From NCBI GenBank assembly GCA_019973155.2, contig BPQB01000001.1, positions 2,418,001 to 2,482,000 of the forward strand: a stretch of DNA of 64,000 nucleotides. Reading direction: 5' to 3'. This DNA is from Phanerochaete sordida. Taxonomy: Eukaryota; Basidiomycota; Agaricomycetes; Polyporales; Phanerochaetaceae. Each line of letters starts with the position of its first letter. Positions within the stretch are counted from its first letter, which is position 1. The notes beneath the pieces are model-generated. The model worked only from the letters and a program-made list of their open reading frames with translations. It was not told where the DNA came from and did no database searches. Shown one piece after another: positions 30,059 to 37,758 of the stretch. A program made the translations under genes and the position numbers.

Positions 30059-32038
30059 CTAGAAAAGGAACGAGCGGCCCAGGGCCGCCGCGTGCAGCGC
30101 GCGCGAGCGCATGTCGCGGCCGTCGCGCGGCTCCTCGTCGCCGCCCGTGGGCATCTCGCCAGGCATGCCGCCGCGACGCTGGAAGCGGCTCGGGTCGACA
30201 TTGCCCGCGACCCAGATGCGCTCGGAGCCCGACTCGAAGCGCCGGCGGTCGACGCGCGCGAAGGCGTCCGGCTGCGGGGCGCGCGACGCAGCGCCCGTCC
30301 ACGCGCCGGGCACGCTGAGCGCGTCGCCCTGCGCGTCCGACGCGTCGTTGTTGAGCTGCTTGCGCAGCGCGCTGATCTGCTCCTTGATCTCGCTCGCGAA
30401 GGTCGGTTTCTTGTCGCCCTCGTAGCCGGCGAGGGTCACGAGCGCCGAGACGCTGTAGAGACGTGAGATGGGGGGAGATATACTTGGAGGAGGGACGTAC
30501 AAAGCCTCCTTGAGGAACGCAAAGCTGAACTTGTCCGTCGTGTCGACAATCTCGTCCGCAAGGCTCTCCGGGAAGTCGATCTCCTTGTTAGGGGAGAGCT
30601 TGTGTTGCCAGTACTGGACGTAGAGCTTGCGCTCTTCTGAATCGGGGTTGTCGAACTTGCTGGAGGGAAAGCGTCAGCGACGAACTTGGTTTGTAAGTCG
30701 ACGTGTTCTTACAATTTCCTATCGAAGCGGCTGGGGCGATTGCGGAGCGACGGGTCGATGTTCTCGAGGTGGTTCGTGGTGCCGATAACAAGCAAACCAT
30801 CGTTGCTGTCGAGGCCGTCAAGCTGATTCAGGAAGAACGACCTGTTAGACGGGTTGATCAGGGAATCGAGGTCCTCGAGGATGACCACGCAAGGTGCCAT
30901 GCGGCGAGCGTGCTCGAATACGTCGACCATAGCGCCCTCGTCGCCCTTCCAGCTGCGGAAGGAGCGCACGTAGAGCGGCGCATAGTTGTTCTCATCCGCC
31001 TGCTTCATGATGGCCTTCATGCTGATAGTCTTGCCGTTGCCTGGAGGACCGTGCATGATGATACCACGCTGCAGGACAGGTGAGTGGCTGCGGAAGCTAG
31101 ATACTGCGGGCGCGGACCTTCCATGGAATGCCGAGGTCGTGGTACATGTCCTCAGAGTCGAAGAAACCGAAAACGTCCTTCTGGAGGCCTTTCTTAAACT
31201 CGTCTTTGAGGATAACATCGTCCCAGTTAGCCTTCTGGACCTCGAGCCAGAGCTTGTGGTCCTTCTGCCAAAAGCCACTGTCGAAGACGAAGATTTCCTC
31301 GTGCAACGACTGGGTGTAGCTGCCTGCGGCGGCCAGAAGGGCCCTCGCGGGCTCTTCGTTACCTTCAAAGAGCAAGAAGTTCTGCGACTGTTCGAAGGGG
31401 CCATGCAGGTACTAAGGGACCGCGCTCAGTGCTTGGCGTTGGAATGAACGGACACGCGCGTACCTGCATGGTGTAGAACGTAAAGTCCCAGTTCTTCCGT
31501 GTCGTGTGAGAGCAATACAGCGCGTATTTACAGCTCAACATACCTCCCAAGCGACGGAGAAGGCGCCAAAGCGAACGCTGTTGACGAGGACGCCGGCGTT
31601 CTCACCCATGCGGCGTGCCAGGGGGAAGTACATAGCGTTGGTGATCAGCTCAGGCGGCGAAATGGGCTGCAGGTAAGCCCTGGGGAAGCCAAAGAGGTCG
31701 ATGCCCCAGGTGAAGGGCACGATGGACGCCTTGGGGTGGAGCTCGCGCAGCTTACGGACGCTGGGTGCGCGTGTTCAGCGCGCGCGCGAGGACGAGGAGG
31801 CGCATACACTCACGCGAAGCCGACAGGATCCTCAAACTTGGCATTGCCTATGTGCGCAGTATTTAGTCCGGCACCGAGAGCGTGTGTGAACGCGTGTACC
31901 GTGGTCGAGCCATGGCTTGTAGAGCGGGTCCTTGCCCGGAGGGAGCTTCTCGACCGGAGGGGTCGGGAGGGTCGGACGAGAGAAGTCCTCCTCGCGAGTG
32001 CTGATGACGACGAAGGCGTCGTTGAAGCTGCTGGCCAT
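30059..32038 (-). CDS. AAA-type ATPase, subfamily uncertain
   Basis: Starts MASSFNDAFVVISTREEDFS at 32038 and ends ALGRSFLF at 30059. A unique N-terminal half (VPFTWGIDLFGFPRAYLQP, LARRMGENAGVLVNSVRFGA) precedes one AAA module: Walker A GPPGNGKT, Walker B CVVILEDLDSLI, sensor GTTNHLENIDPSLRNRPSRF with arginine finger. The C-terminal tail is rich in Arg/Gly/Pro. The single AAA domain is of the general BCS1-like/fungal orphan type, but the N-terminal BCS1 mitochondrial sorting domain is not recognisable, so the substrate is unknown. Several introns; exons join in frame at HGN|AKFED, GFA|VRKLREL and PWK|RGIIMHG. It shares a 243-bp divergent promoter with TOM20, suggesting but not proving a mitochondrial link. 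Confidence 0.85.
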
Positions 32039-32281: not shown

Positions 32282-33084
32282 ATGTCTTCCTCGGCGTCGC
32301 GCACGTCGACCTTCCTCACCATCGCCGGTGTCACCGTCCTCAGCGGCTTCCTCGCATATGCCGTCTACTTCGACTACAAGCGCAGAAACGACGCCGACTT
32401 CCGCAAGAAGCTGCGTAAGTCTCAGGAACACATGTCAAATCGCGCAGCATGGCCTGACTGCTTCGTGTTCTTCTTCAGGGAAGGACAAAAAGCGCGTGGA
32501 GAAGGCCGCCACCGCATCGTCGTCCACGGTCGACTTCACCTCAGGCAGCCGGGCTGATGTGCTGAAAGCCGAAATGGCCAAAATCCGTGCCGAGCCTCTC
32601 CCAGAGGGCACTCGCGAAAAGGAGCAGTACTTCATGGAGCAGGCGACCCTCGGAGAGCAGCTTTGCACACAAGGTGCGTCATCCTTGTCTCGCATACTGC
32701 CCCGCATACTCAGAGTCTGCGCAATCAGGTCCTGCGTTCGCTGTCAGCGCAGCGTTCGCGTTCTTCCGGGCACTTCGCGTCTACCCATCACCCGTGGAGC
32801 TCATCATGCTGTACCAGTCCTCGCTTCCTCCCGAGGTCTTTGCTGTGAGTGATTATAGCAGCCACTGCTTAAACACTCTTCTAATGCTTTCGTAGGTTAT
32901 CCTGGAACTTACTAATTTGGACGTGAGTGACTCTTCCTCTTCGACGAAGGAGGAGGCAGAGGAAGCCCAGGAGACTGAGGAGCAGGAGCAAGAGACCAGC
33001 CCGGAAAGGACTGGTCCGCCCTCAGAAGCTTCGTCCCAAGAGTGGGACAAGCTTACAGATCCTGGCAGCCAGCCTGGATTGTAG
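32282..33084 (+). CDS. tom20: Mitochondrial import receptor TOM20 (short isoform)
   Basis: Starts MSSSASRTSTFLTIAGVTVL; one N-terminal membrane anchor (FLTIAGVTVLSGFLAYAVYF) followed by the basic stretch YKRRNDADFRKKL, a charged linker, and the MAS20 receptor fold (REKEQYFMEQATLGEQL; FAFFRALRVYPSPVELIMLY; VILELTNLD). This product continues after LTNLD into an acidic tail (KEEAEEAQETEEQEQE) and ends DPGSQPGL at 33084. TOM20 sits in the outer mitochondrial membrane and recognises presequences. Exon joins: CTGC|GTAAGT, CAAG|GTGCGT, TTTGCT|GTGAGT. The last exon of this isoform contains a perfect internal donor that could redirect the transcript into the downstream SET frame (next entry). Confidence 0.92.
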
Positions 33085-34637
33085 ATCTTCCTTCGGCTTC
33101 ATGGCTAGACTATGCTTGCTTGCATCTACCACTACTCCATCCTTTCCCTCTGTGTCGTCGCAAGTCTTCGATCTAATGCATATTGTATCCTTGCATGTAC
33201 GTCAATCCGGCTGTCCCCCGACAGGTCAAGGAACGTGCCGAAGGTGAGCAGCTTCTTCCGCAGATGCTTGGCATGCGGCTGAAGTGCTGGTGGGTCCTTC
33301 TCAGGCTATTATGACCACTTCCCGCCAAAATCATGGAACGTCCGAGTGCAAGACAAGGACGGCAAAAAGGTTCTGGTCGCGGATAAAGACTTTGAGAAGG
33401 GTGATGTCATCTATAAGGTCAGTGTAGTGATGGTGCTACCAGGCTCCTCCTGACTGTTCTGCAGGAATACCCTATCGTGGCTGCTCTGGACTGGGATTTG
33501 CTTGAGGCAGGATCGCATTGTGCGTACTGCTTGAAGCTCGTACACAAAGTGTCCGAGTACCGGCCAGAGAGCGACCTCCTCAACACCGTCTACTGCTCCA
33601 GGGACTGCTACGACAAGGCCAAGCAGCAGTACCACGGCATTCTGTTCACTCTCGACCCTCTCCTGCCGCCCGACTTGGACGCCGAGGGCGTCGCTGCCGA
33701 CCCAGAAAAGCGCAAGGCAGCGCAGGAGGCCCTCGTCGCGCACCTCAAGTCGAACAAGAAGCTTGCGGACTTCCTCGTCGCGAAATGGGTCGCGCTCCAG
33801 ATCACGATCGAGACGTCGAAGGTCATTCCGGGCTCCGTGAGCCCCGCGAAAGACCTGCCGAAGTACCTCGACGACGACGCGCCCGAGTACGCGATCGGCG
33901 ACCACCTCGAGCGCCTGCGCTTCCTCGGCGCAGAGGTCAAGGAGGAGGACACTGAGATCCTCCGCAACGTCTTCGGCACGGCGCTCCCGGGCCTCGAGAA
34001 CTCGCTCACCGAGGACCGCCACGCGACGACGCTGGGCAAGATGCTGTACAACGCCATCGGCATCTGCTACTCTGGCGGCCGCGACGACAGGGTAAGTGCC
34101 GTGTCGGCCAGACGTGTGCGCTGTGGCTGAGCGTGCGTTCCAGCCCCAGTTCCACGAGCGCCCGGAGGACCAGGAGCGCACGCGCACGCCGTACGGCACC
34201 TCGCACCAGGTCGGCAGCGGCCTCTTCCTTGTCTCGTCCTACGTGAGTCTTCCCAACCCCCTCGCATCCCGACGCGCGCTGACGCGGCGCAGATCCAACA
34301 CTCGTGCGAGCCGTCCGTGCGCCCGTCCTTCACGGCGGGCAACCACAAGCTCTCGCTCATCGCAACGCGCGCGATCGCGGCGGGCGAGGAGCTCACGATG
34401 GCGTACGTCGACGTGGCGCAGCACGAGGGCGAGAGCGCCGCGGACGCGCGCCGCCGCCGCCGCTTCGAGCTCGCGCGCGGCTGGCGCTTCAAGTGCGAGT
34501 GCGCGCGCTGCGCGGCCGAGGACGAGGGCGCTGGCGAGGCGGACCTCGGCGTGACGGTCGACGAGAGCAAGGTCGAGGACGCTGCGGCGCGCTTCGAGGC
34601 GAAGAAGGCGGAGGCGGAGGCGGCGGAGACCGACTGA
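32282..34637 (+). CDS. TOM20-MYND-SET fusion isoform, putative lysine methyltransferase
   Basis: If the GTGAGT at 32923 (just after LTNLD) is used as a donor and CCCCGACAG ending at 33224 as acceptor, the frame continues in phase through a 19-nt exon (VKERAEG, 33225-33243) into YYDHFPPKSWNVRV and a complete SET protein. Landmarks: MYND-like zinc cluster (CAYCLKLVHK...VYCSRDCYDKAKQQYH), a helical insert, SET core (SHQVGSGLFLVSSY, IQHSCEPSVRPSFTAGNHK, AIAAGEELTMAYVD) and a post-SET cysteine cluster (FKCECARCA), stop at 34637. Catalytic-core motifs (NHS-type QHSCEPS and the late Tyr in AYVD) are present. The SET frame has no convincing start of its own: the nearest ATG at 33178 would need a 28-nt intron. 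Family context: SMYD/Set5-like methyltransferases. Isoform use is inferred, the coding is seen. Confidence 0.75.
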
Positions 34638-34896
34638 GCGTGTCGTACGCGTGTTGGATAAGCGTCGCTCTACTATAGCCGTAGTCTAATGGGTCCAGCT
34701 AGGTGTCCGCGACGAAGTAGCATAAGCGGGCAGTATCTGTGAACTGCATACAATGCGCTAGATGATCTCTCAATAACGAAGCGAGCCGGATAACCCTGTG
34801 GCGTTCAAGCTCACGCCACACGATAGCCAGAGTCAACGTGCAAGTGTATCGGTCCTTGCTACTGTACAACTTCGCCCAATCTCTATGCGGCACCGC

Positions 34897-35796
34897 CTAC
34901 TTCTGCAGAGCCTTGAGGATCGCCTGGCCGATGGGGCCGGCCGAGGCAGGGTTCTGACCGGTGATGAGGTTGCCGTCGACGACGACCTTGGGGGCCCAGG
35001 CAGCGTCGGCCTTGACGTACTTGCCGCCGAGCTCGTTGATGCGGTCCTCGAGAAGGAACGGGATGGCCTGCGGGCGGACGTGAGCACGGCGACGGCGCAA
35101 CTGTGCGCGGCGCGGGGCGTACCTTGACCTGGTCGATCGCGATCTCCTCCGCGTTCGAGAAGCCCGTGGCCTCGCGGCCCTTGAAGATGGACGCGCCGGT
35201 CGCGTCGACGGCCTGCACGAGCGCGGCGGGGCCGTGGCACACGGCGGCGGTGACCTTGCCGGCCTGGAAGAACGCGCTCGCGAGCGCGGCGTTGACGGGG
35301 TCCGACGCGAGGTCGATCACGGGGCCGTGCCCACCGACGTAGAAGACGGCGTCGTAGTCCTTGGCGTCGACGTCCGCGAGGCGCTTCGCGGTCGCGAGCT
35401 TCTGCTGCACGGCCGCGTCGGCGAGGAACTTGGTGCAGTCCGCGTCGGCCTTGAAGTTCTGCGTGCGGCGTCAGCCTCCTCGTGTGGCGCGGGCGCGCGG
35501 GGAAAGGGGCGCACCTCAGCGCTGCCCGGGTCGAGCGGCGGGTTCGCGCCACCGGGCGCGGCGAAGTCGATCTCGGCGTGCGGCGCGAGGACTGTGAGGC
35601 TGGTCAGCACGACGTGCACCGAATATCGCGCGCTCTGCACGCACTGTAGTACGGGTGGGCAGCCTCTGGGAGGTACCAGCCCTGCGTTTCAGCTTCAGTT
35701 CTTGGTGTCCCGCAGCACACGCGCCGCACGCACCGTGGGCTTGCCGGTGAGGCTCTTGTCGGCAGAGGTAAGCACGAAGAGGATGCGGGGAGACAT
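34897..35796 (-). CDS. Glutathione-independent glyoxalase III, DJ-1/PfpI (Hsp31) family
   Basis: Starts MSPRILFVLTSADKSLTGKP at 35796; exon 2 gives GWYLPEAAHPYY, exon 3 LAPHAEIDFAAPGGANPPLD, then VGGHGPVIDLASD and the nucleophile elbow AAVCHGPAAL with the active Cys, ending ILKALQK at 34897. About 235 aa, the usual family length. Proteins of this clade convert methylglyoxal to lactate without glutathione and act as stress chaperones in the cytosol. The Cys, the Glu of LPEA and the downstream His of CHG fit the catalytic triad layout. A TATA box lies about 80 bp upstream. GC-rich antisense ORFs across it are shadows. Confidence 0.92.
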
Positions 35797-36859: not shown

Positions 36860-37758
36860 CTACTGTATCTCGCCAGACCAGAGGACCATGTCGTCGCGGA
36901 GGAGCTGGAGGATGGTGAGTGAGTCTTCAAGCGCCTGGCCCTCGGGCATGCCCGCCGCCGCCTGAATCGCCTCGTCGAACGCATGCTTCGCGAGGAAACA
37001 CGCGCGCTCGGGGCTATCTGCGATGTCGTGGTAGTAGACCGCGAAGTTGAGCGCGAGGCCGAGGCGCGTCGGGTGCGTCGGCTCGAGCATGCACGTCGCG
37101 TGCTTGTACGCGAACTTGTACGCGTCCAGCGACGACGACGCGTTCCGGTCGTCCGGCTGGTCTTTCGTGAACTCCGCGAGGTACCGGTAGTAGTCGCCGC
37201 GCCTGGTGGCGGGTGTCAGCGGATCGGTATAGATGAGAAGAGGCGCGCCCACATTTTGCTGTAGAACACCTTCTCCTCGCCTGGATTTGACGAGGGGATG
37301 AGGAAGTTCTCGAGCAGCTCGACGATCTCGACGCAGACGCCGTCGAGCTCCCGCCGTATGCGCTCCTTCTGGAGGTGCATGAGGGCGACCTGATGTGGCG
37401 AGGAGCGCGGCGCCTCGCGTTTCTCGAGGTTGTCGATGATCCGCCACTGGTTCCGCAGCTGGCCCGTGATGTGCTTGAACGCGATGGACAGCAGGTTTCG
37501 TTCCTCAATCGTGAGCTGGTCGTTCGGGCTGTTTATGAGCTCCTTCATCGATGCGACAACATCTGTTAACAGGTCAGACGACCACAAAGTGCTGCGGAGT
37601 GAGGCGATGCACCTTTGTAGCGTTCTGCTTGATCAGCTACCCTCGCAAGGTACAGCCGGTCAAGCCGCGACACAGTCAAGTCCAGCTATGAGGGTGCAGT
37701 ACGTCAGGTGGGATCGACGCGCCTTCGACAGGACGCGGGCACTCACAGCGGGAGACAT
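36860..37758 (-). CDS. Divergent 14-3-3 protein
   Basis: Exon 1 is MSPA from 37758, exon 2 LDLTVSRLDRLYLARVADQA, exon 3 starts DVVASMKELINSPNDQLT, and the last exon starts with the RGDYYRYLAEF signature and ends DDMVLWSGEIQ at 36860; about 255 aa. 14-3-3 dimers bind phosphoserine peptides in client proteins. The peptide-binding basic triad is kept: Lys and Arg in [13 protein letters not shown] (equivalents of K49 and R56) and Arg-Tyr in YYRYLAE (R127, Y128). The rest differs: canonical fungal copies have YKNVVGARRASWRI and [20 protein letters not shown], here [14 protein letters not shown] and [20 protein letters not shown]. It is therefore likely a secondary, fast-evolving paralogue rather than the main BMH-type protein, which is not in this window. 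Confidence 0.9.

Follow-up and report, generated by a model that had tools for sequence, protein, structure and literature searches.

The window analyzed here, a 64,000-nucleotide stretch of Phanerochaete sordida contig BPQB01000001.1 (positions 2,418,001 to 2,482,000), carries on its forward strand a gene for TOM20, a main entry receptor for mitochondrial proteins, and the exons of this gene can be read in two ways. Exons 32282-32414, 32479-32673, 32729-32844, and 32896-33084 encode a 210-residue TOM20 with its stop codon at 33082-33084. Inside the last of these exons lies a splice donor, GAC|GTGAGT at 32922/32923; joining 32922 to 33225 (after CCCCGACAG) and continuing through a 19-nucleotide exon and four further exons gives an open frame of 557 residues, in which TOM20 is fused to a SET module. 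Both the tail with its stop at 33084 and the donor were found where the original prediction, made from the letters of this stretch, had placed them, and the join runs in phase to 34637 as it had proposed. The features are:

32282..32414 (+), TOM20 exon 1, membrane anchor, common to both forms (gene model, MAS20 match)
32479..32673 (+), TOM20 exon 2, common to both forms (gene model, MAS20 match)
32729..32844 (+), TOM20 exon 3, common to both forms (gene model, MAS20 match)
32896..32922 (+), start of exon 4, the common part, encoding VILELTNLD (gene model)
32923..32928 (+), GTGAGT, splice donor of the fusion and Val-Ser in the short form (Val-Ser in 48/64 motif-bearing relatives)
32923..33084 (+), short-form tail and stop (translation, conservation in relatives)
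33031..33069 (+), conserved tail motif SSQEWDKLTDPGS, with W-D-K-L at 33043-33054
32923..33224 (+), intron 4 of the fusion, 302 nucleotides (gene model)
33195..33197 (+), ATG in the SET frame within intron 4, a possible separate start (frame check)
33225..33243 (+), 19-nucleotide exon, VKERAE and the first base of G (gene model; conserved)
33305..33417 (+), fusion exon 6, GYYDHFPP..., start of the SET module (gene model)
33465..34091 (+), fusion exon 7, half-MYND finger and SET insert (gene model, alignment)
34144..34242 (+), fusion exon 8 (gene model)
34293..34637 (+), fusion exon 9, C-terminal SET, post-SET cysteines, and stop (gene model, Pfam, alignment)
34296..34298 (+), Gln445, replacing the NHxC asparagine of the SET domain (alignment)

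The splice join is not a chance reading, because the public P. sordida protein (P0001, 557 residues) is identical to the predicted fusion over its full length. When donor-like hexamers were matched across 32282-33224, the one at 32923 was the only one within the tail. Intron 4 of the fusion, at 302 nucleotides, is a length outlier, since the other seven introns measure 47-64 nucleotides. A CTAAT branch-like site also stands 48 nucleotides from its acceptor, compared with 10-22 nucleotides in the six other introns that have such a site; this distance is suggestive of weak splicing, and we did not use it as evidence. Our own-genome searches covered the 40.8-Mb P. sordida assembly that holds the window. 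MAS20 matches were confined to this locus, which speaks against a second TOM20 gene, and the next-best match to the SET part beyond the locus reached only 31.5 bits, which speaks against a stand-alone SET paralogue as the source of the fusion. The MAS20 Pfam match spans residues 18-151 in both products (E 5e-38 in the fusion, 1.9e-38 in the short form). By fold comparison the receptor part has a Tom20 fold, and its N-terminal helix was predicted with low confidence.

The fusion is not peculiar to this species. A search with the fusion protein gave 228 matches, one with the short protein gave 186, and a further search gave 147; 120 were listed in each case, and all counts below refer to the matches listed. 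MAS20 and SET Pfam domains occurred together in 117/120 fusion-search matches, so the original guess that a TOM20-SET architecture exists in other basidiomycetes was borne out, and the architecture recurs across Agaricomycetes. The exceptions were P0002, with SET only, and P0107 and P0108, marked MAS20 only though covering 97-99% of the query. With P0002 excluded, 73 of 119 fusion models pass from TOM20 directly onto the residues of the 19-nucleotide exon (71 by pattern, 2 by eye). These residues and the adjoining ones are conserved (R161 in 93/117, G164 in 104/119, and Y165, F169, and P170 in 119/119). Alignment column 174, the starting methionine of many SET-only models, is Met in 103/166 sequences and Trp in P. 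sordida; the 19-nucleotide-exon stretch lies upstream of it, and its conservation would be unexplained if translation started at that methionine. In four fusion models (P0032, P0034, P0049, and P0106), PF04430, which we take to be DUF498/DUF598, follows the SET domain, probably through run-on into a neighboring gene in Boletales annotations.

Read-through at GTGAGT gives Val-Ser, a 53-residue acidic tail, VSDSSSSTKEEAEEAQETEEQEQETSPERTGPPSEASSQEWDKLTDPGSQPGL, and then TAG. At the DNA level this tail is unremarkable: a run of 53 open codons appears in 12.5% of shuffles that preserve composition, and the tail's GC content at third codon positions (GC3), 0.62, is lower than in the coding parts on either side (0.75 and 0.88). 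Openness alone is thus weak evidence, and the case is carried by protein-level conservation in relatives. The C-terminus of short TOM20 relatives carries a conserved motif, SSQ[ED]W[DE]x[LV]TDPGS, found in 64 of the 120 short-search matches by a lenient pattern and in 59 by a stricter SS-pattern. We could align the donor position in 99 of the 120, and among the 64 motif-bearing sequences it held Val-Ser, a pair encodable by GTGAGT or GTAAGT, in 48. The other pairs were Ile-Ala in nine (Ustilaginaceae or close), Leu-Glu in four (Naganishia), and single cases in P0151, P0179, and P0206. Of 35 motif-less sequences, only two had Val-Ser: P0203, from Cystobasidiomycetes, and P0143, whose frame continues into an intron. 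Val-Ser and the motif are both present in Dacrymycetes-like sequences. The tail is conserved at the protein level from Agaricomycetes to Dacrymycetes. Beyond these the motif persists as W-D-T-L in Ustilago and W-E-T-L in Naganishia. The motif is older than Agaricomycetes, and the short form is therefore likely the ancestral one. P0132 is a close relative of the P. sordida short form with an identical tail end.

This conservation bears on the proposal that the fusion alone is made and that the tail is intron sequence open by chance. The public P. sordida model is indeed the fusion alone, and the shuffles show that such a run of open codons can arise by chance. Set against this are the protein conservation of the tail from Agaricomycetes to Dacrymycetes, the tryptophan motif in Ustilaginaceae and Naganishia, and 18 short contig-only open reading frames (ORFs) that carry the tail, whose end here is SSQEWDKLTDPGSQPGL. 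We regard fusion-only production as highly improbable, and we rejected the tail as merely open intron on protein conservation; the DNA signals (the shuffle frequency and the middling GC3) would have been insufficient alone.

These contig-only ORFs also speak to splicing. Their sources (lgn, jgi, and ena) provide no gene models for these matches. Because ORFs from the same sources often run into introns (e.g. P0143, P0174, P0178, and P0183), those that cross intron positions cleanly point to spliced RNA. The 18 short ORFs with the tail (P0124, P0125, P0127, P0132, P0135, P0136, P0145, P0146, P0148, P0149, P0150, P0152, P0163, P0164, P0165, P0175, P0190, and P0192) are joined by six fused ORFs that run from TOM20 straight into SET (P0045, P0111, P0117, P0147, P0242, and P0246), numbers that are not abundances. 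The short P0127 is 99.3% identical over 146 residues to P0064, a Pisolithus microcarpus fusion, and P0136 and P0249 are 100% identical over 47 residues, which places both forms in near-identical organisms.

Taken together, we find it quite probable that one gene gives two C-terminal forms of TOM20, depending on whether the donor within the coding sequence is used or read through. This reading is based on the open frames, the public fusion model, the conservation of tail and junction, and the predicted folds; from these we infer the presence of both RNAs in P. sordida, their regulation, and the topology of the protein. In the mechanism we propose, the last exon of a single-copy gene would be composite. 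When the donor GTGAGT at 32923 is skipped, translation would continue with Val-Ser into a disordered tail carrying W-[DE]-x-[LV] and stop at 33084, yielding the plain receptor, the older of the two forms. When the donor is used, the tail would leave as a 302-nucleotide intron, and VILELTNLD would be followed by the 19-nucleotide exon and then by the SMYD-like SET module, so that TOM20 would gain a large additional domain. That domain would be expected to face the cytosol from the outer membrane. The original proposal, that one locus yields TOM20 both plain and fused to SET, accordingly gains backing from the public fusion, the tail conserved across species, and the contig-only ORFs of both kinds. 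If it is true, mushroom-forming fungi could use a splice choice to couple the import of proteins with the turnover of mitochondria or with some other signal.

Several observations weigh against this interpretation. The P. sordida short protein is itself absent from the 120 of 186 short-search matches listed. Val-Ser may predate both the fusion and the use of the donor, as it occurs in Dacrymycetes-like sequences, among whose listed matches no fusion was seen, and in the motif-less P0203. The tail motif is retained between TOM20 and SET in 25/119 fusion models and a further 21/119 are irregular; these differing gene models may mean that annotators disagree and that some species make a tail-containing fusion. 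In ten species, the TOM20 and SET parts are annotated as adjoining genes with consecutive tags. At least five contig-only SET ORFs begin within the 19-nucleotide exon without TOM20 and are spliced onward (P0258, P0270, P0271, P0287, and P0289), which fits retained-intron or SET-only RNAs. Finally, the contig-only ORFs are presumed to derive from RNA, a limit that we count here as well. Separately, five of the fusion models (P0083, P0087, P0051, P0075, and P0112) are spliced just after W-D-K into VKxRVEG, so that W-D-K-V is retained; they may represent either a third form or a gene-model artefact.

Some of these points would suit two overlapping genes, a plain TOM20 and a SET gene starting in or near intron 4, with the fusion models being annotation run-ons; in a variant, SET would be read from a bicistronic RNA with the intron retained. 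The original prediction had held that the SET frame has no credible start of its own, the nearest ATG, at 33178, needing a 28-nucleotide intron. This did not hold up: the ATGs near that position lie at 33176 and 33195, and the latter is in frame with the 19-nucleotide exon, needs no intron, and opens a 410-residue product beginning MYVNPAVPRQVKERAEG, which makes a separate SET product conceivable. The consecutive TOM20 and SET models in ten species and the contig-only SET ORFs that begin in the 19-nucleotide exon point the same way. However, the SET-only models, those of the ten species included, begin at non-homologous methionines, the 19-nucleotide exon and GYY..FPP are strongly conserved upstream of SET-only starts, six contig-only ORFs run straight from TOM20 into SET, and the start at 33195 was without counterpart, by eye, in the other SET-only ORFs examined. 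We consider overlapping genes and their bicistronic variant, even jointly, decidedly unlikely as the sole explanation.

Under the preferred reading of two tails from one gene, the tail itself may have a function. Within its fast-changing sequence stands a conserved block, [PS]PSE[AT]SSQ[ED]W[DE]x[LV]TDPG. The fourth motif position (W+3) is Leu or Val in 63/64 motif-bearing matches, the tryptophan and its acidic neighbors having been set by the search pattern. Atg8-interacting motifs (AIM), also called LC3-interacting regions (LIR), follow the consensus W/F/Y-x-x-L/I/V after acidic or Ser residues. W-D-K-L at 33043-33054 fits this consensus. In the model of the short form P0121, no secondary structure follows residue 156, and the predicted local distance difference test (pLDDT) score is about 46-56 from residue 161. 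Within the last 45 residues, [DE]Wxx[LIV] is absent from all 120 SET-side matches listed; a tail-less fusion would thus lack the motif, and splicing may exchange an autophagy-type motif for the SMYD-like module. A bolder version, in which basidiomycete TOM20 with an ancient Atg8-interacting motif is also a mitophagy receptor and, in Agaricomycetes, splicing at the donor within the Val-Ser codons removes the motif and brings in a non-catalytic SMYD-fold pseudo-methyltransferase, is speculative, and we think it unlikely. If true, the splice choice would toggle TOM20 between an "eat me" signal and a second, non-catalytic binding role. At the C-terminus of P0203 (SSGTGSYVDV...), Y-x-x-V stands in place of the W-x-x-L/V of Agaricomycetes and may be a variant of this motif. 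A kinesin light-chain W-acidic motif was also considered for E-W-D and set aside, since fungi are not known to have kinesin light chains.

The module at the other C-terminus resembles SMYD2/3 in predicted structure comparison, and Pfam found MAS20 and SET in the fusion, SET above cut-off. The "complete MYND" of the original prediction was not recovered: no MYND match appeared in the fusion protein at E<=0.1, and the cysteines invariant in a 40-row alignment (220, 223, 245, and 249) amount to about half a finger. Of its "lysine methyltransferase", the SMYD-like fold stands and the activity is doubtful, because cofactor and active-site positions are degenerate here and kept in most other SET genes of the genome. 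We counted catalytic sites in 175 sequences of at least 340 residues, from the 120 fusion-search matches listed and P0241-P0304. The NHxC asparagine, Gln445 in P. sordida, is kept in 15/174 relatives. The two GxG columns, 184 (168 sequences) and 186 (169 sequences), matched by eye to the GxG of L005 and L008, hold no glycine. At position 481, the active-site tyrosine, we counted Tyr in 115, Phe in 42, and Trp in 18 of 175, with Tyr481 in P. sordida. By contrast, 13 of the 15 other SET places in the P. sordida genome keep the NHxC asparagine, with one lost and one unresolved (by eye). In a stretch of about 2.8 kb (G000:C2:303820-306621), two SET-domain exons, L007 and L008, lie on opposite strands, and both retain the glycine-rich and Asn motifs intact.

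An active lysine methyltransferase at the outer mitochondrial membrane, with both forms made, as the original prediction had it, is possible but doubtful. The SMYD2/3-like fold, the Pfam match, Tyr481 in P. sordida, and the residues H446, C448, W507, and C511 (invariant) and F509 (171/175) are in its favor; the rare asparagine, the absent glycines, the replacement of Tyr481 by Phe or Trp in 60/175, and the asparagine kept elsewhere in the genome oppose it. With conserved cofactor-site residues lost, we think that the SET module, instead of being an ordinary methyltransferase, acts by binding, its target being a precursor, a chaperone, or a TOM partner.

Around the locus, the window holds three further ORFs on the reverse strand: one with an AAA ATPase domain at 30709-31404 (E 9.8e-21), one with a DJ-1/PfpI domain at 34883-35410 (E 2.6e-10), tail to tail with the SET exons, and part of a 14-3-3 gene at 36860-37447 (E 1.5e-37).

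The fusion is already known. Ding et al. (2022; PMC9692433), in the sections available, report in a single sentence a group of fungal SET genes, Group 25, in which MAS20 precedes SET, the same two-domain architecture as in P. sordida, with none found in Ascomycota; those sections make no mention of TOM20 isoforms, of a donor within the coding sequence, of the tail motif, or of lost residues at the S-adenosylmethionine (SAM) site. Our literature searches found no description of the two-tail TOM20 arrangement or of the tail motif. Compared with SMYD2 and SMYD3, the module here has half of the MYND finger and has lost the NHxC asparagine in most, and the GxG in all, relatives examined. Compared with Chaetomium Tom20 in the TOM complex (9i7s_K), the basidiomycete protein differs at its C-terminus by a tail with the tryptophan motif or by the SET module. 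In the available part of a review (PMC9006661), the human mitochondrial methyltransferases covered all belong to the seven-beta-strand class; a TOM20-linked SET module would therefore be unusual, active or not.

For fungal mitophagy, the accessible excerpts name Atg32 for yeast (PMC4326477, PMC13208281), and those of the U. maydis mitophagy paper name no outer-membrane receptor of U. maydis. The TOM20 tail, whose Atg8 motif is a candidate, has no homology to Atg32. Yeast Atg32 likewise sits in the outer membrane and has a W-x-x-L/V-type motif in a disordered part exposed to the cytosol. A parallel in gene layout comes from fungal enzymes that, according to the portions consulted, are dually localized through alternative splicing or stop readthrough, the added end being a peroxisomal targeting signal (PMC4207609). 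There too one gene has two C-termini; unlike those targeting signals, in TOM20 a whole domain would replace the tail.
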